Assembly: GCA_017469885.1 (NCBI GenBank)
Contig: JAFUFO010000016.1
Span: 62,001 to 126,000 of the forward strand
DNA length: 64,000 nucleotides
DNA from: Solobacterium sp.
GTDB lineage: Bacteria; Bacillota_I; Bacilli_A; Erysipelotrichales; Erysipelotrichaceae
Reading direction: 5' to 3'
The translations under genes were made by a program, and so were the position numbers. The notes under the pieces are model-generated. The model saw only the letters and a program-made list of their open reading frames with translations. It was not told the DNA's origin and did no database searches. Positions 45,515 to 63,119 of the stretch are shown here, in pieces. Numbering within the stretch: position 1 is the first letter of the stretch; the number at the start of each line of letters is the position of its first letter.

Positions 45515-48118
45515 ATGAAAACAATTATCTGCAGTGAAGAACAGAAGAATCTGATCTGGCACCGTCTGCTGAGCCAGTCCGGCGGTCCGATCATCACCGA
45601 TATACAGCTTCTTTCGCCATCCAATATCCTTCGTCAGGAGGAACCGGCTGACGAAAAGGCTGATGCACTCCGGCTTTCCAGACAGCTTAAGACAAAGGCT
45701 GACGCCTTCCCGATCTACCGCGCAATGTTTCGTTTCCCGGCCTTCATTCAGGAAATCCTTTCGTTCGCAAGAGAATGCGCCCTTTACGGGATATCCACTG
45801 CCACGCTGCCCGGAGACACCGCAAGCGAGCGGGAGCTGGCAGGGATTCTTTCTGAAGCGCTGACACTTCCGCTGAAAGAAAAAACGATTGCGGCGAACTA
45901 TTCCCGGATCCTTTCGGATGCGGCCCGGCTGTCTCCGGCAGAATTTGAAGTCCGGTTTGAAGCGGATCCGTTCCGTTCCCGATTTCTGAATGATCTCCGT
46001 CAGGCGATTCCGGATTCCAGGGAAATCCATCAGGAGCGGCTCTGCAGAAATACAGAACTGCGCTATGCGCCGGGCGTGCGCCAGGAAATCGAAGCCTGCG
46101 CGCAGGACATCATCCGCCGCGGCACATCATGCGCTGTTGTTCTGTGCGATTATGAATCACAGCTTCCGGTTCTGCGTCAGGTATTTGAACGATATGCAAT
46201 TCCATGTTCTGCCATCCGTGAATCGTTCCGGCCTGCGGTTATCGATGCCTATCTGAGCCTTGCACATTTTGCATTGTTCAAAGACCGTGATTCATTTCTT
46301 GCATGTCTTGAAACGGATGCGTTCTCCGCGCATGCGGACAGCCGCCTGATCCGGCATTTCAGCGCTGCCATGACGGAAGAGGGATTCCATCCGCTTACCG
46401 GACAGATTGATAAGATACAGTTCAAACGTGATCACAAAAACGCGGAAACAATGGATCAGAATGCAGAACGCTTTCTTTCTGCAATCGAACCGGTTTTCAC
46501 AGATCTGCGCAGTACAGATTCCCCTGCCGCAGCGCTGTCTGCGGCATTTGAGGCACTCCGTTCCTCCCGCATCGCATCTGATCCGAAAGAACTCGGTGCT
46601 GCGCTTGCACTTCGAAACCGCCTGAATCAGACACTTCCGCTTGTAGAGACCGAAGAAGACGCCCGATTCGTGCTGCAGGAAATCGATTCGATTACCTCTT
46701 CGATCAGTGAACCGCAGCCTTCCTTCTGCATGGTGACCGATCTGTCCCATCCGGCCGAACCGGTTGATACGCTGTATGTTCTCGGCTGTTCGGGAAAACA
46801 GTATCCGGGTGTCCCCCTGCGCAAGGGACTTTTTGACGAGCCATACACTGCCAAGGTTCCCGGTTATCCGACCATGGAAGAACGGCATGCCCTGTGGGTC
46901 AGCCAGCTTTCCTGGCTGGAAAACAGTTCCGATACGGTTATCTATTCCTATGCCGCAAGCGACTATCAGGGCCGGGAAATTCAGCCGGCGTTCGACATCA
47001 CCTCAAAGCCGGTCACAGCGGTTCCATGGAAAGTGGAAAAAGTTAAACCGGCAGAGCCCCGCAGGCATTCTATCCTGCCGGAAACCGCACAGGCGCTTTA
47101 TGAAACGGACGGACAGATTCATTCATCCGTCTCCCGGATTGAACGCTGGTTCAACTGTCCCTATTCCTGGTTTCTGCAGTCCGGTCTTAAGATCCGCAGG
47201 GAACAGCGCGGCGGTCTGGAACAGTCCGATATCGGAACTCTCCAGCATGCCGTCATGGAACATGCGGTAAAGACGTATAAAAAAGATTATTTTATGATCA
47301 GTGAAGCAGAGATCCGGGAGTTCCTGAAGCCGGCATTTGCGTCACTGCGCGCAATGCATCCGGATGAGGAAGTCCGGGCAAACCTCAGTGAAGAGCGGAT
47401 GGTTTACAGTATCCTTCAGACCATGCAGTTTCTGAAGGAGACGGAAGAAGCCGCTCCTTCCTGGAAACCGGAAAAGGCAGAGGAACACTTTGAGGAGCCC
47501 ATCACAGAACATGTGATGCTGAACGGAAGTATTGACCGGATCGATTATTCCGGTCCTTCTCTGCGGATTCTGGACTACAAGTCTTCCAAAAAAACGCTAT
47601 CGGAAAAGAAGATCAAAGCCGGTCTGCAGCTTCAGCTGCTCTCCTATCTGATCGTTGCCTGCCGCAGAGAGCACCGTAAACCGGCAGGAGCGTTCTATAT
47701 TTCGCTGAAATCCGAAAACGGCAAATCCGAAGCCGGCAGTTTTGCCAAGACCAACAAAAACGGTGTCCTTAACGATGCATGCGGAAATGATGCATCCCTG
47801 CATGATGCCATGGTAAAGGAACGCCGTATCAACGGATGGTCCTTCGATGATCCGCTGATCAGCGATGAAGACTACAAGCGGCTGTTTTCACCCGGCACAG
47901 GCCAGTATTCCTATGAAGCGGTGGAACAGTGTATCTCTGAACTGTATGAATACTTCCACGAACACGCCTGTAGCGGAGACATCGATGTGGATCCGGTTGC
48001 CGGCGCATGCACATTCTGCGATTACAAAGCCATCTGCCGGTATCATCTGCCGCCGCGTGCTTCCCGGGAAGTTGTAATGAAAGACATCTCTCTGAAAAAG
48101 GGAAAGGAGGCTGACTGA
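45515..48118 (+). CDS. addB: ATP-dependent nuclease subunit B (AddB/RexB-like)
   Basis: 867 residues, shorter than Bacillus AddB (about 1160). The N-terminus (MKTIICSEEQKNLIW) lacks a Walker A motif, so helicase function is degenerate as in RexB. The C-terminal RecB-type nuclease has NGSIDRIDYSGPSLRILDYK near residue 670-690, and an iron-sulfur cluster is suggested by FNCPYSW (about 547) with ACTFCDYKAICRY (about 830). With AddA it resects double-strand breaks up to Chi. Its stop is one base before the addA ATG. The message appears leaderless. Confidence 0.9.
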   Translation: MKTIICSEEQKNLIWHRLLSQSGGPIITDIQLLSPSNILRQEEPADEKADALRLSRQLKTKADAFPIYRAMFRFPAFIQEILSFARECALYGISTATLPGDTASERELAGILSEALTLPLKEKTIAANYSRILSDAARLSPAEFEVRFEADPFRSRFLNDLRQAIPDSREIHQERLCRNTELRYAPGVRQEIEACAQDIIRRGTSCAVVLCDYESQLPVLRQVFERYAIPCSAIRESFRPAVIDAYLSLAHFALFKDRDSFLACLETDAFSAHADSRLIRHFSAAMTEEGFHPLTGQIDKIQFKRDHKNAETMDQNAERFLSAIEPVFTDLRSTDSPAAALSAAFEALRSSRIASDPKELGAALALRNRLNQTLPLVETEEDARFVLQEIDSITSSISEPQPSFCMVTDLSHPAEPVDTLYVLGCSGKQYPGVPLRKGLFDEPYTAKVPGYPTMEERHALWVSQLSWLENSSDTVIYSYAASDYQGREIQPAFDITSKPVTAVPWKVEKVKPAEPRRHSILPETAQALYETDGQIHSSVSRIERWFNCPYSWFLQSGLKIRREQRGGLEQSDIGTLQHAVMEHAVKTYKKDYFMISEAEIREFLKPAFASLRAMHPDEEVRANLSEERMVYSILQTMQFLKETEEAAPSWKPEKAEEHFEEPITEHVMLNGSIDRIDYSGPSLRILDYKSSKKTLSEKKIKAGLQLQLLSYLIVACRREHRKPAGAFYISLKSENGKSEAGSFAKTNKNGVLNDACGNDASLHDAMVKERRINGWSFDDPLISDEDYKRLFSPGTGQYSYEAVEQCISELYEYFHEHACSGDIDVDPVAGACTFCDYKAICRYHLPPRASREVVMKDISLKKGKEAD

Positions 48119-48119
48119 T

Positions 48120-51100
48120 ATGAAAATGGATCCCCGCCAGGCTCAGGCTGTTGAAACAACGGGTTCCGATATTCTGGTCAGCGCTTCTGCCGGTGCCGGA
48201 AAGACACGGGTCCTTGTAGAACGTCTGGTTTCCCTCTGCGCCGCAAAACATATCGGTATGAATGAGATCCTTGCGGTCACCTTCACCGAAGCCGCCGCAA
48301 GTGAAATGAAAAACCGTGTAGCCGCACGGCTTCAGGAACTCGCGGCCGCGGAACAGAATGAAGAACAGAAGCGGTGGCTGACCTCCCAGATGGTGCTGCT
48401 CGCCGATGCGGACATCACCACCATCGACAGTTTCTGTCTGAACCTCATCCGCAAGTATTTCAGTGTCATAGGCCTCGATCCCGCGACCGCCGAAAACATC
48501 CTTGAAGAAAGCCTTCGAAAGCAGATGCTGGAAGATGCCTTCAATGAAGCACTGGCGGAATATGACCTCGTTGACCATAACGGGCTGATGAAGCTTCTGG
48601 AAGCGTACAGTCCCCGCCCGGAAAGTTACGAAGAAATCCGCACGATGGTCAATTCCCTCCGGGATCTTGCGGAGCGAAGCGGCAATGCGGAGGAATATCT
48701 GCGGACCAATGCGGAGACCTTCCGCAATATCCGTGCCATGGCGGATGTTCCTCCGGTCATTCTCGATGCGTTTTATGAACGGCTCACCATGCTGTGGGAA
48801 ACCGCAGAGCATGCATTTCAGGAGATGGAAGAAATTGCGGACAGCGCAGCCGATGAAATCAGAAAACCCGAACAGATCACGGAATCTTTCAATCGCTTCC
48901 GCAGTACGGAACAGGCGCTGCGGGAACGGAATTATGATCACTTCCGGGTACTGTTCGATGTCTTCGGAACCGAGATCAAAACCCCGGCCTGCAAAAAAAT
49001 TTCTGCATATGAGAATGCAAGAAACGCGATGTACGGCGCCTGCGAGAAGATGACCGCAATGCTTTACAGCAGTGAAGTGCTTCTCGGGGACATGCGTGAC
49101 ATGTATCCGTATGCGCATGTGCTCAGTGAACTGACAATTCTTACCATGCAGAATTTCCAGAAGGCAAAACAGGAAAACGCATGTATGGATTTCACAGATA
49201 TGGAACAATATGCCTGGGAGATCCTCAACCGGAATGACCAGGAAGTCGCAAAGCTGTACCGCGCCCGCCTGAAGGAAGTCATGGTCGACGAATTTCAGGA
49301 TACCTCGTGGCTTCAGAACGAAATCATCCGCACCGTCGCGGCACCGGGAACCATTTTCCGTGTCGGTGATGTCAAGCAGTCCATCTACCGTTTCCGCGGC
49401 GCAAAGCCAGCACTGATGCGCGGCCTTGCGGAGGATCCCGCGATGTGCAGAATCACGCTCGATCATAACTATCGTTCTTCTTCCAGAATCATCGAATTTT
49501 CCAATCTGCTCTTTCAGCGTCTGATGAATATTGAAGGCGGCGAGGATGTATACGGAGAAGAAGATATCGTTTCTCCGGGTGTCCCTGCACAGACTTCCCC
49601 GGATGATCCGCCGATCCGGATGATCCTTTTGGAAGCGCCGGAACAGCCTGCGGATGAGGACACCGAGAGCGACGAAGAAAGCTTCAGCGCAAAGGAACGA
49701 AAGGCCGGATGGATTGCCTCCAAGATGATCGAGCTTCATGACGAGGGAAACCGCTGGAACAGCTTCTGTGTGCTTGTCCGCTCGCATGCCGAAAAGATCA
49801 CGCTGGCACGGATGTTCGAACACTGCGGTATCCCGTATGACATCGATACGCGTCAGGGTTTCTATAACAGTGATCTGTGCATGTATATCCTTGCATTGCT
49901 GCAGGTGCTGGCAGACCCCCAGGATGAGCTTTCCCTTCTCACGGTGCTGAGCGGTGAACTGTTTGAGATGGATGATGAAATGCTTGCCCAGCTTCACCTG
50001 AAACACGGTTCGCTGCGCAGGGCAGTTTCCGAGGATTATCCGGACATCACCGCCTGGTTTGATTCCCTCCGGAATCAGTTTTCCAAAGGCATGCCGGCTC
50101 TTCTGGACCGCATTGCGCTTTATCATGGCTTTTATGAAAAACTCACAGATGCCGGGAAAGCCAACTTCGATTTTCTCTATGAAAAAACCGTGCGCTGTGC
50201 ACGGAAATGCTTTACTGTCTATGATCTGATCCGGATGATGACCGCCGGCGCAGATGAGAAATCCTCCAATGCGACCTGCCGCAGTAAGGATGATGATGTG
50301 GTGACGGTCACCACCATTCATCAGTCCAAAGGCCTTCAGTATCCGGTTGTCTTCCTCTGGAGCAGTTCCTCCAACAAACTGATGGATTCCCAGAATGCAC
50401 TGATTCCGGATACGGAGATTCCGTTCAGTCTGAAACACTTTGATCTCCCCTGGCGGACCGGCCGCTCCACCATGGCACGCATGGCCGCCGAACACCGTCA
50501 GAGCATCGCGGACATCGCAGAGTATATCCGCGTCCTGTATGTCGCTCTGACCCGGGCTGAAAAGACCATGTTCATCGTGGATCTTGCCAAGGCAGAACAG
50601 CCGTACCGGAAGGTCATGACACTTGCCGAGCTCAGCCGCCGCAAGGGCATTACCGGATACATTACCGCAGCGCTCAGAGAAGTGCCTGACCTGTATCGGG
50701 TGGAACATATTCCTCCCGAGGAATTCCGGACCGTCCCTGAGACCCTGCCCTCTTACGTCAGGGAACTGCCGCGGTGCACAGCCCCAAAGACTCTGACACA
50801 GACAGTGATGCGTCCGAGCGAAACGGAATTCACTTCCCTTCCGCCGCTGAATCCGGGATCTGCCTCCCGCGGCACACGATACGGAACCCTGATCCATGAA
50901 ACCATTGCGGCACTTCCGAACCGGATGTGGACTGCGGATGACTTTGATCATACGGTGCTCCGTCCGGGTGACATCGATTCGATCCTGCATTTTTCGGAAT
51001 CGGATCTGTATCAGAAAGCGCTGACCATGGACATCCGGAAAGAACTGCCGTTCTATATGGAAGATCCGTCTTCCGGACAGCCGGTCACAGGTGTGATGGA

Positions 51101-51302
51101 CTTTGTCGCATTCGGTCCGGATGAGACTCTGCTCATCGACTTCAAAACCGATGCGATGACACCGGAGGCAATCCGGCGTCATTACAGTCCGCAGCTGAAC
51201 GTTTACCGGCAGGCACTCCGGCTTCTGAAGCCGGGCATCCCGGTACATGCATGGGCATGGAGTTTCCATAACCGCACGGCAGTGGAAATCCCGGAGCCCT
51301 GA
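48120..51302 (+). CDS. addA: ATP-dependent helicase/nuclease subunit A
   Basis: 1060 residues. The UvrD-type helicase has Walker A VSASAGAGKTRVLVERL (about 19-35), ADITTIDSFCLNLI, VDEFQDTSWLQNEII, GDVKQSIYRFRGA, TIHQSKGLQYPVVFLW and VLYVALTRAEK. The C-terminal RecB nuclease motif is TLLIDFKTD near residue 1000. It drives the AddAB motor and cuts one strand. AAAGGAGG precedes the start. It is shorter than the Bacillus protein (1232) but has all motifs. A long-stem terminator follows. Confidence 0.97.
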   Translation: MKMDPRQAQAVETTGSDILVSASAGAGKTRVLVERLVSLCAAKHIGMNEILAVTFTEAAASEMKNRVAARLQELAAAEQNEEQKRWLTSQMVLLADADITTIDSFCLNLIRKYFSVIGLDPATAENILEESLRKQMLEDAFNEALAEYDLVDHNGLMKLLEAYSPRPESYEEIRTMVNSLRDLAERSGNAEEYLRTNAETFRNIRAMADVPPVILDAFYERLTMLWETAEHAFQEMEEIADSAADEIRKPEQITESFNRFRSTEQALRERNYDHFRVLFDVFGTEIKTPACKKISAYENARNAMYGACEKMTAMLYSSEVLLGDMRDMYPYAHVLSELTILTMQNFQKAKQENACMDFTDMEQYAWEILNRNDQEVAKLYRARLKEVMVDEFQDTSWLQNEIIRTVAAPGTIFRVGDVKQSIYRFRGAKPALMRGLAEDPAMCRITLDHNYRSSSRIIEFSNLLFQRLMNIEGGEDVYGEEDIVSPGVPAQTSPDDPPIRMILLEAPEQPADEDTESDEESFSAKERKAGWIASKMIELHDEGNRWNSFCVLVRSHAEKITLARMFEHCGIPYDIDTRQGFYNSDLCMYILALLQVLADPQDELSLLTVLSGELFEMDDEMLAQLHLKHGSLRRAVSEDYPDITAWFDSLRNQFSKGMPALLDRIALYHGFYEKLTDAGKANFDFLYEKTVRCARKCFTVYDLIRMMTAGADEKSSNATCRSKDDDVVTVTTIHQSKGLQYPVVFLWSSSSNKLMDSQNALIPDTEIPFSLKHFDLPWRTGRSTMARMAAEHRQSIADIAEYIRVLYVALTRAEKTMFIVDLAKAEQPYRKVMTLAELSRRKGITGYITAALREVPDLYRVEHIPPEEFRTVPETLPSYVRELPRCTAPKTLTQTVMRPSETEFTSLPPLNPGSASRGTRYGTLIHETIAALPNRMWTADDFDHTVLRPGDIDSILHFSESDLYQKALTMDIRKELPFYMEDPSSGQPVTGVMDFVAFGPDETLLIDFKTDAMTPEAIRRHYSPQLNVYRQALRLLKPGIPVHAWAWSFHNRTAVEIPEP

Positions 51303-51319
51303 ACCCCGAAGATGAAATA

Positions 51320-51376
51320 AAGAACTGCGTCTGTATGCGCTGATCCTGATCATGCATACCGGCCGCAGTTCTTTTT
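51320..51376 (+). terminator. Terminator of addBA
   Basis: A 10-bp outer stem AAGAACTGCG/CGCAGTTCTT with a long loop containing a TATGC/GCATA inner stem, followed by TTTTTC. Confidence 0.8.
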
Positions 51377-59667: not shown

Positions 59668-61812
59668 TTATTCGACCGTAATCGTAATGGTGACTTTCTG
59701 GTTTCCTTTTTCGATTGTGACGGTCTGTTTATCGCCGTCCTTACCGGCGGTGAACCGGCGTGTATCGGATCCGCCGCTGCGGTTATTTCCATACGATCTG
59801 GCGCCGCCGTTCTTTGGCTCTGATCCGCTTCCGGGGGGCAGAACGCTCTTTTTGACATCCCCTGCCGCAAGCGGTGCCGGTTTGTCCGCAGGCCTGTCAG
59901 CGGGTTTGTCAGATTTCTCTTCCGGTTTGGATCCGGCACGGATCTCCCGGATTTCATTCGGGAACAGTTTGTGAGCCGCGGTATATGACGAAACTTCTTC
60001 GGGCGGAATCTGATAGGTATTCACCATTTCCTTTACGTATTCACGCATGTATTCCCTTGCGGCATCATACGCTTTTAGGAAGGCGTTGATGCCGTCCCTC
60101 AGAAGAACCAGACTGTCATTTTCCTTCCCGATGTCGATCGTGCGGATATCTTCGCTCTCCGATACTTCGGCGTGATTGATCCGGTTGCGGATATCGCCGA
60201 GGTGGTAATACGTATACAGCACATCTTCCAGCAGATCCTTGCGGTCATACAGGACGGAGAATGCTCTGGTCATCTCCTCCGCCTTGTTATCCAGTTCATC
60301 GATACGGAATTTTGCAAAGTCACGCTGGCGGTCCTTCGAGTTGCGGATGTTGCGGCTGCGGATCTGCGTGCGGCCGTAGTACTTGATGAAGAAATGTGCG
60401 AGATCATTGAAGTTCCAGCGGTCTTTCGGTGCGTAATCCCAGTACAGGAGATTGATTTCCTCCAGGAATTTTGCCCGGCTGTCCGGATCTCCGGCATAGT
60501 AGAAGATACCGCTGTCCACGATATTCTGCGGCAGGCGAGACTCAATGATTGTCAGTGACTGCTGGTAGAACTTTTTCCGCATTGCCCACCGGACGAGTTC
60601 CACCGGATCGACGCTGTCGCCTTCCAGAATTGCACCGTAGTCCTGACGGATCGTATCTTCGAGAATCCGGAAGATATTGCTTTCCACTTCCGGAAGTTCT
60701 TCTTTCGGGGTGTTGGCGAAAACTTTCTTAAGCATATTGATACCGGACTCGAGATCGCCGGTGTTGCACAAGGAGATACCTTCATCCACACGGCGCATCG
60801 CGTAGAGGAGGCTTTCGATATGCGGATTCTCAATGCCGCGGCTGTCCCAGTATGCCTGAATCTCATCAACCTTTCCGTAGCGGATGAATGCATTCATGCC
60901 GGATACGAGATTGTTGATGTCATAACGCTTCATCTCACGGTTATCGATCGGATTGGCAAACCTTCCCGGACGATAGTGACTGGTGATGATTTCACTGATG
61001 CCGATGCGGCTGTTCTGGTCATTGCTCAGCATCGAAAGCACAGCCAGAATCGTATATCCTTCTGCCGAGGCAAGTCCCTGCATATCCATGTAGATATTCA
61101 CTTCCTCCGCATCGATCGCATTGAGAACACTGACGATCTGGGCAACATTCTCTGCCGGCACATAGTCCCGGTTCTGATCATGGGATGTCGGAACGAAGCG
61201 GATGCCGATATCGGTATTGTCTTCCCGGCGGGAAAGCTTCATGGTGTCCGCAAACTGCGTATAGATATAACGTTCCAGCCACAGCAGTTCCTTGTCGGAG
61301 AGATCATCCGGCATGAAGTCCTGAAGTTTCTCGTACAGTTCTTCATTGCTGGAGATGATGTGGAATACCCGGTCCGGACGATAATCGGGGGACGCCGAAA
61401 GTTCTCCGCAGAATTTCCGGTAGCCTTCCCTGATTTCCTCTACACGGACCCCTTCCGTATCTTCCAGTACATCAACGGATTCCATGTCCAGACCATCGAG
61501 GAACTGGGCGATCCGGTACTGGAAGAAACTGTACTCCGAGATTTTCTTCGTATCCATCGAGGTAAAGTCCGACCATTCGCGCAGGACGATGCGGTTGTTT
61601 TCTTCTCCCGGATAATAGGTATTTCCGGAACCTAAGACGATAATCTCATCGATATCGACATTGGAAAGAATATATTTTGCGCCAGCTTCCGCGACACTGA
61701 GTCCGTCGCAGTACTGTGTGCTTCCGTCCTTTTCAAAATAAAAGTACCGATGCGATTTCCGGTCTCCGAGCGTGGAGAGCGATGTTAACAGCAGATTGAC
61801 AGCTGGTTTCAT
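59668..61812 (-). CDS. Orphan CARF-like (TM1812/Csx1-type) protein with HEPN-like domain
   Basis: 714 residues. The N-terminus (LLLTSLSTLGDRKSHRYFYF, then IDEIIVLGSGNTYYPGE) and the segment VNIYMDMQGLASAEGYTI near residue 240, with GRFANPIDNREMKRYDINNL after it, resemble the CARF part of TM1812/Csx1 proteins; the usual D-x-T-H-G is altered. A helical middle part leads to DIRNRINHAE near residues 538-547, an R-x4-H motif of HEPN RNases. From about 640 a low-complexity P/K/G-rich tail ends in beta-like KQTVTIEKGNQKVTITITV. No CRISPR array or cas gene is nearby. AAGGAG lies before the ATG. It could be a cyclic-nucleotide-activated RNase; that is inference. Confidence 0.6.
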   Translation of the reverse strand: MKPAVNLLLTSLSTLGDRKSHRYFYFEKDGSTQYCDGLSVAEAGAKYILSNVDIDEIIVLGSGNTYYPGEENNRIVLREWSDFTSMDTKKISEYSFFQYRIAQFLDGLDMESVDVLEDTEGVRVEEIREGYRKFCGELSASPDYRPDRVFHIISSNEELYEKLQDFMPDDLSDKELLWLERYIYTQFADTMKLSRREDNTDIGIRFVPTSHDQNRDYVPAENVAQIVSVLNAIDAEEVNIYMDMQGLASAEGYTILAVLSMLSNDQNSRIGISEIITSHYRPGRFANPIDNREMKRYDINNLVSGMNAFIRYGKVDEIQAYWDSRGIENPHIESLLYAMRRVDEGISLCNTGDLESGINMLKKVFANTPKEELPEVESNIFRILEDTIRQDYGAILEGDSVDPVELVRWAMRKKFYQQSLTIIESRLPQNIVDSGIFYYAGDPDSRAKFLEEINLLYWDYAPKDRWNFNDLAHFFIKYYGRTQIRSRNIRNSKDRQRDFAKFRIDELDNKAEEMTRAFSVLYDRKDLLEDVLYTYYHLGDIRNRINHAEVSESEDIRTIDIGKENDSLVLLRDGINAFLKAYDAAREYMREYVKEMVNTYQIPPEEVSSYTAAHKLFPNEIREIRAGSKPEEKSDKPADRPADKPAPLAAGDVKKSVLPPGSGSEPKNGGARSYGNNRSGGSDTRRFTAGKDGDKQTVTIEKGNQKVTITITVE

Positions 61813-61903
61813 AGATGGGTTTCTCCTTGTTTTTCATTCCTATTGTATCGTAATTAAAAAAAATCCACCCGCATTCTTGTGCAGACCCTCATTTTCATTT
61901 GCA
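61813..61903 (-). promoter_or_regulatory. Promoter region of the CARF-HEPN candidate
   Basis: On the minus strand TACAAT lies about 38 bases before the start, followed by AAGGAG. A T8 run precedes the box. No good -35 is evident. Nothing else is seen here. Confidence 0.4.
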
Positions 61904-62095: not shown

Positions 62096-62129
62096 AAAAG
62101 CCGCCGTACAGATGTTATGCACAGCGGCT
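62093..62129 (-). terminator. Terminator of lysC-asd
   Basis: Minus-strand stem AGCCGC/GCGGCT enclosing a long loop with partial pairing, followed by TTTTTTAT, 10 bases after the asd stop. Confidence 0.8.
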
Positions 62130-62138
62130 CATATAAAC

Positions 62139-63119
62139 TCAGTGATTCACAATATATTCGAGAATCTGTACGGCATTGGAGGCAGCGCCCTTGCGGATCT
62201 GGTCTCCGCAGCACCACAGTGCAAGTCCGTCCAGCGCCGGATCCTTCCGGATACGGCCCGCAAAGACAAGATCCTGATTGCTGGTATCCAGCGGCATCGG
62301 GTAGCCTTCCGCAAGATAACGGACGCCGTCTGCCGCGTCGATTGCCTTCGCAGCTTCTTCAATTCCGATCTCACGCTCGCAGGCAACGCTGACGGAAATC
62401 GAATGGGAACGAAATACCGGAACACGCACGCATGTGCAGGTAACCTTCATCTCCGGATTGTGCAGAATCTTCCGGCCTTCATTTCCGAGCTTCGCCTCTT
62501 CGGTTGTCACGCCGTTTCCGGTGTCGGAACCGATCCAGGGAATGCAGTTGTACGCAATCTGGGCCGGGAATACCTTCGGCTGAACCGCTTCTCCAGCCGC
62601 AAGTGCCTTTACTTCCTCTTCAAGTTCACGCATACCGTTGATGCCGGCACCGCTGACTGCCTGATAAGTGCTGGCGACCATGCGTTTGATCGGGCTGAGG
62701 CGGTGAATCGGTGCCACTGCCATCAGGGTGATGATCGTGCTGCAGTTCGGATTGGAAATAATACCGTTATGATGCAGTGCATCTTCTCCGTTGATTTCCG
62801 GCACGACCAGCGGTACATCCGGATTCAGACGGAAGGAACTGGAGTTATCAATGAATACCGCTCCGGACTGTTTGATCGCCGGCGCAAATTCCTTTGCGAA
62901 TTCCGCTTCCACAGCACCGAGCACGAAGTCGAGTCCGGCAAATGCACTGTCCTTTGCCTCCTGGATAATCAGCTCGCTGTCCTTGAACTTCACTGCCTTT
63001 CCGGCACTGCGGCTGCTTGCGAGGAGCCGCAGCTCATCACATGCGATATTGCGTTCTTCGATGCATTCCAGCATCTGGCGGCCTACCGCACCGGTCGCTC
63101 CGAGAATTCCGATTTTCAT
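62139..63119 (-). CDS. asd: Aspartate-semialdehyde dehydrogenase
   Basis: 326 residues. The NADP-binding GILGATGAVGRQML at the start, active-site cysteine in ISNPNCSTIITL near residue 126, and VSGAGINGMRELEEE near residue 155 are diagnostic. It reduces aspartyl phosphate to the semialdehyde for lysine, threonine and methionine synthesis. Its ATG overlaps the lysC stop by 4 bases, so aspartate kinase and the next enzyme are coupled. Confidence 0.97.
   Translation of the reverse strand: MKIGILGATGAVGRQMLECIEERNIACDELRLLASSRSAGKAVKFKDSELIIQEAKDSAFAGLDFVLGAVEAEFAKEFAPAIKQSGAVFIDNSSSFRLNPDVPLVVPEINGEDALHHNGIISNPNCSTIITLMAVAPIHRLSPIKRMVASTYQAVSGAGINGMRELEEEVKALAAGEAVQPKVFPAQIAYNCIPWIGSDTGNGVTTEEAKLGNEGRKILHNPEMKVTCTCVRVPVFRSHSISVSVACEREIGIEEAAKAIDAADGVRYLAEGYPMPLDTSNQDLVFAGRIRKDPALDGLALWCCGDQIRKGAASNAVQILEYIVNH

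Follow-up and report, generated by a model that had tools for sequence, protein, structure and literature searches.

The window analysed here, a 64,000-nucleotide stretch of a rumen Solobacterium MAG (G000), encodes a 714-residue protein that is best explained as a Csx1/Csm6-type CARF-HEPN RNase that has left type III CRISPR and been domesticated to answer a trigger other than a cyclic oligoadenylate, a reading to which we give a probability of about two in three. To our knowledge, CARF-HEPN RNases are known almost solely as type III CRISPR effectors. The protein looks like a re-used effector of this kind because type III genes are missing, the sensor pocket is changed and STAS and transporter genes lie beside the gene in relatives. 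The observations under this reading are a predicted fold, an R-x4-H motif, purifying selection, absence of type III genes from G000 and 13 relatives, and absence of the GGxR motif. The gene, its parts and its flanking elements are as follows (positions in the window, basis in brackets).

59668..61812, minus strand: CARF-HEPN gene, stop included, 714 aa (translation, PADLOC CARF_HEPN, AF2 model)
61823..61828, minus strand: its ribosome-binding site AAGGAG (sequence)
60928..61812, minus strand: CARF (Rossmann-like) sensor region, residues 1-295 (AF2 model, VIA-align)
61066..61092, minus strand: altered strand-4 CARF motif YMDMQGLAS, residues 241-249 (alignment columns)
60013..60927, minus strand: helical C-terminal half with Csx1-type HEPN, residues 296-600 (separate AF2 model, pLDDT 90)
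60172..60189, minus strand: HEPN active-site motif R542-N-R-I-N-H547 (R, N and H nearly invariant in 28 homologues)
59761..59919, minus strand: disordered low-complexity linker, residues 632-684 (pLDDT <50, composition)
59671..59760, minus strand: C-terminal beta-strand motif, TVTIEKGNQKVTITITVE (AF2 strands 685-712, alignment A1)
62098..62130, minus strand: terminator-like hairpin between asd and the CARF-HEPN gene (scan: 13-pair stem, then a T run)
62139..63119, minus strand: asd, aspartate-semialdehyde dehydrogenase, upstream of the CARF-HEPN gene (ORF list, named by sequence inspection)

The gene starts with ATG and runs on the minus strand from 61812 to 59668. Since a terminator-like hairpin follows asd, it is probably transcribed separately, the total number of such sites in the hairpin scan being barely above chance. 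In two genomes of a second genus (loci L108 and L109), the homologue likewise has an asd-like gene immediately upstream; the adjacency may be ancestral or coincidental, because other genes are found upstream on the G001 and G028 contigs. Elsewhere in the window, a 1164-aa ORF (47859-51353, minus strand) lies antisense to an AddA-like gene (48120-51302) and is almost certainly no gene. The CARF-HEPN ORF itself codes for protein and is subject to purifying selection: comparison with the orthologue L047 (95% identity) gives a dN/dS of 0.097 for the whole gene and of 0.07-0.13 for the folded regions, with a looser tail, and the folded parts of three pairs gave values of 0.07-0.18.

Neither Pfam nor NCBIfam assigned a family to the protein, and sequence searches of the PDB returned no related chain. 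The PADLOC CARF_HEPN and Csx1/Csm6 models match it (best E 2.5e-32, others to 1e-5), the Csx1/Csm6 match spanning residues 297-591. For a full-length AF2 monomer model built with 28 homologues (pLDDT 82), the top Foldseek and VIA-align matches were Marinitoga Csx1-Crn2, Csm6, Csx1, Card1 and ring nucleases; compared with Csx1-Crn2 with bound cA4, the model gave a Foldseek E of 4.2e-8 and a VIA Z of 12.6 over 395 residues. The earlier note had proposed an N-terminal CARF part and a Foldseek search of an AlphaFold model as a check. That search found the CARF fold: a Rossmann-like fold is predicted for residues 1-295, with a helical insert at about residues 77-185, and residues 3-295 match the CARF domains of Card1, Csm6, Csx1, Can2 and ring nucleases in VIA-align (Z 9-12).

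Residues 296-600 were folded separately because the CARF domain alone could yield the match list of the full model. The three Csx1-Crn2 entries ranked first to third (Z 12.9-13.7, 209-217 residues aligned); the rank-4 match (Z 10.2) covered 94 residues, under half the Csx1-Crn2 coverage; Foldseek alone gave a weak match for this part (E 0.15). The motif R-N-x-x-[N/S]-H, including R542 and H547, is present in all group members that span the site. The catalytic HEPN residues of Csx1-Crn2 are R397 and H402, and RNA cleavage is abolished by H402A (PMC7293037); R542 and H547 have the same spacing. The C-terminal HEPN with an R-x4-H motif, as first read from the sequence, is therefore upheld by the separate model and by the conservation of R and H. 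With the CARF fold predicted and R542/H547 conserved, neither of the two outcomes that the earlier note had named as contrary to its reading was found. All together, a CARF plus HEPN architecture is supported by the profile matches, the two structure models and the R/H conservation in homologues.

The sensor half departs from its CRISPR-linked relatives at strand 4. These have D-x-x-G-G-x-R, where the window protein has DMQGLAS; by alignment the altered stretch is Y241-M-D243-M-Q-G-L-A-S249, in agreement with the earlier remark that the canonical CARF motif is changed. GGxR is present in four CRISPR-linked rows and in a pair of proteins on G209:C132, and absent from every group member. The window's branch has DMQGLAS or similar, the second-genus copies DLQGLDI or DLQGFDI, and the third branch ALNSDDM or similar, with S-D-D-M at the loop. 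The strand-1 motif LLTSLS is retained in the alignment, and the conserved K/R that follows strand 4 of the CARF pocket is absent in the window protein. In the view of Makarova and colleagues, this K/R probably contacts the ligand, and CARF families devoid of it, such as RtcR, would have other ligands (PMC4012209). Indeed, the RtcR CARF, which acts outside CRISPR, responds to an RNA-repair-linked signal and not to oligoadenylates (PMC9650030). Loss of GGxR does not prove that cyclic oligoadenylate binding has been lost.

The C-terminal tail was described in the earlier note as low-complexity with a beta-like end, which the AF2 model reproduces: residues 632-684 are disordered and three beta strands are predicted at 685-712. 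In the close branch, a stretch of variable sequence, enriched in N, K, R, G or P, precedes a short I-x-I-type strand motif, and this ending recurs in the close sub-clade and is missing from the third branch. A role of the tail in RNA binding or self-association would be a guess.

About 22 proteins make up the group. They come from 15 Erysipelotrichaceae genomes, of which 13 belong to the window's genus and two to the second genus, and at least 7 of the 15 have two or three copies. Relatives with named records come from Solobacterium MAGs of cattle, sheep and reindeer gut and from one further gut MAG. In the wider class and phylum samples, no convincing member was found beyond the order, two weak partial matches near E 1e-4 being left out of the count. 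In the tree, two degenerate branches (supports 100/98 and 100/100) make up the 22-row group (89/82), itself nested in a 24-row group (98/98) that includes the G209:C132 pair, the closest canonical relatives of the group. With these supports, GGxR may have been lost twice. At the G209:C132 locus (L110, 1776-7721), the two CARF-HEPN proteins carry a canonical GGSR and flank a stand-alone CARF protein. A mobile-element origin was rejected, as the collections of phages, plasmids and viral contigs searched held no match to the CARF-HEPN protein.

In nine related loci, a small STAS gene adjoins the CARF-HEPN gene or lies one gene away, in two gene orders, and six of the nine also have a MATE transporter gene. 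In the window's branch (G031, G032, G124, G021 and G009), STAS is directly 3', with a 4-bp overlap or a 15-27 bp gap, and a MATE gene precedes the CARF-HEPN gene in G021, G009, G028, G001 and G099. The order in the third branch (G016, G010, G098 and G118) is STAS-MATE-CARF/HEPN with gaps of about 14-23 bp, and genes for DnaJ-TPR and DnaK lie downstream. Identity between the two MATE types is low, at about 25%. Given 3-7 STAS genes per genome, two independent STAS placements would arise by chance with a probability of about 1e-4 or less, by a simple estimate that ignores operon structure. The STAS neighbours have an SSAGL/TSAGL motif in all rows except one with SSAAL. We found no description of a STAS-MATE-CARF-HEPN operon in the literature searched, which lay outside the 2020 CARF classification of Makarova et al., and the recurrence of STAS and MATE beside the CARF-HEPN gene in relatives is new here. 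In two genomes, MATE-CARF/HEPN-STAS is followed by genes for a subtilase-like secreted protein (by sequence inspection) and a TIR-domain protein (L060, 4793-9400; L064, 1840-6431).

No STAS or MATE gene adjoins the window copy, so that for the window protein a STAS/MATE pathway is inferred. The nearest STAS relative in G000 lies on another contig, away from the CARF-HEPN gene (G000:C7:143461-143751). In a separate cluster on G000:C15 (L130, 7899-11721), a fusion of STAS with a phosphotransferase is encoded together with a STAS protein, an RsbW-like ATPase and a MATE transporter that carries a fused ATPase domain, also RsbW-like; MATE and STAS thus associate in this lineage anyway. The recurring STAS, MATE and DnaJ-TPR/DnaK neighbours in relatives suggest a role in regulation or stress more than membership of a defence island. 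For a domesticated RNase we propose that the protein would act as a dimer and cleave single-stranded RNA with its HEPN domains, by analogy to Csx1, and that the CARF part would no longer answer cyclic oligoadenylate but another host signal or a partner protein. The outcome would be stress-linked RNA turnover or growth arrest, and as parts of the control pathway the closely spaced STAS (anti-anti-sigma-like) and MATE genes of related loci are the leading candidates. More tentatively, and with the odds against it, STAS-based partner switching may have captured the RNase, a phosphorylatable, MATE-tied STAS protein replacing cyclic oligoadenylate to give a housekeeping stress RNase.

HEPN RNases are common in defence and the family is listed by PADLOC. 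The protein might then be an abortive-infection RNase that protects against phage on its own, switched on without CRISPR by a nucleotide or RNA end made by phage or damage, and the non-oligoadenylate signal of RtcR offers a precedent. This appears unlikely, however, given the lack of matches in phages, plasmids and viral contigs and the presence of up to three paralogues per genome. Moreover, the loci of close orthologues have biosynthetic and transport genes as neighbours, and their overlapping synteny suggests vertical inheritance. The earlier note had suggested that the orphan protein may be a stand-alone defence or stress RNase sensing a nucleotide signal: a CARF-HEPN orphan without type III genes is supported, the role is only a hypothesis, and defence, though possible, is unproven.

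The claim that a type III system is absent was extended from the window, which has no CRISPR-like repeat array, to the whole G000 assembly (49 contigs, 95.7% complete). The search proposed earlier for type III cas genes and CD-NTase-like cyclases found no Cas1, RAMP or SMODS gene and no above-cutoff Cas10 palm there; arrays were sought in the 64-kb window, and the cyclase searches covered the Cas10 palm, SMODS and GGDEF families. The 13 other carriers tested likewise have no RAMP and no Cas10 palm or SMODS above cutoff. The exception among the 15 carriers with respect to RAMPs is G209, which holds group members together with type III genes. By comparison, all five carriers of CRISPR-linked homologues (G004, G014, G055, G101 and G212) have RAMPs, each with at least one homologue within or adjoining cas genes. 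TIGR02578 matches in most genomes cover about the first 100 positions only and were discounted as HD-domain proteins (by inference, RNase Y is the probable identity); sub-cutoff Cas10-palm matches in G021, G028, G124 and G206 coincide with GGDEF domains and were rejected. The sole Cas10-like match among the carriers tested is a C-terminal Csm1/Cas10 fragment with an in-frame stop in G010 (G010:C79:104-595; L072, 80-583; 112 bits), a genome without RAMPs, and it may be left over from a type III system that was lost.

These searches bear on whether the protein is still a cyclic-oligoadenylate-dependent type III effector, with Cas10 missing from the assembly or another cyclase acting in trans. 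Its fold is that of cA4/cA6-activated enzymes, LLTSLS is retained and one relative keeps a Cas10 fragment. Yet cas10 could drop out of one MAG, not plausibly out of all 14 carriers, and the lack of GGxR throughout the group is in keeping with relaxed selection for cyclic oligoadenylate; we consider such dependence improbable. Control by c-di-GMP, with the CARF part binding the product of nearby GGDEF enzymes, is suggested by a GGDEF gene 3' of the homologue in G021, G028 and G009. These three genomes hold 20-49 GGDEF domains, however, so that a single GGDEF neighbour is not striking, and c-di-GMP was rejected as a general ligand since no GGDEF was found in five carriers (G001, G010, G016, G098 and G118), making this reading highly improbable. 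G000 has one GGDEF diguanylate cyclase, on a contig other than the window's; overall, GGDEF domains number 20-64 in G009, G021, G028, G032 and G124 versus 0-1 in G000 and the five carriers without a match, a marked difference among members of a single genus. Finally, a decaying, non-enzymatic remnant without present function would account for the eroded CARF motif but is scarcely credible, since dN/dS is about 0.1 and every spanning member keeps its active-site residues.

The domesticated RNase may be set against known systems. With Csx1 and Csx1-Crn2 (Marinitoga, PDB 8y7g and 8y7f), it has in common the order of CARF, helical linker and HEPN and the R-x4-H motif; unlike Csx1-Crn2, it has no Crn2 domain, no GGxR and no type III genes found in its genome, and it carries a long disordered tail with terminal strands. 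Csm6 of Thermus, Streptococcus and Enterococcus shares the CARF-HEPN fold by Foldseek and VIA-align. Csm6 responds to cA4 or cA6 made by Cas10, whereas no Cas10 was found in the genome of the window protein, the CARF pocket of which is altered. RtcR, likened here by description, has a CARF domain outside CRISPR in a family whose members mostly have no positive residue following strand 4 in the pocket (PMC4012209), but it is a sigma-54 transcription activator and not an RNase such as the window protein is predicted to be. In partner switching of the SpoIIAA/RsbV type, the parallel is the small neighbour of the relatives, a STAS protein with the serine motif; in contrast to these systems, no RsbW-type kinase was seen beside the CARF-HEPN loci. 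A conserved chromosomal group outside CRISPR, with an altered sensor and STAS/MATE neighbours, would show that such an effector can be domesticated to serve other signalling, and would give a tractable system in which to look for a CARF signal other than an oligoadenylate.
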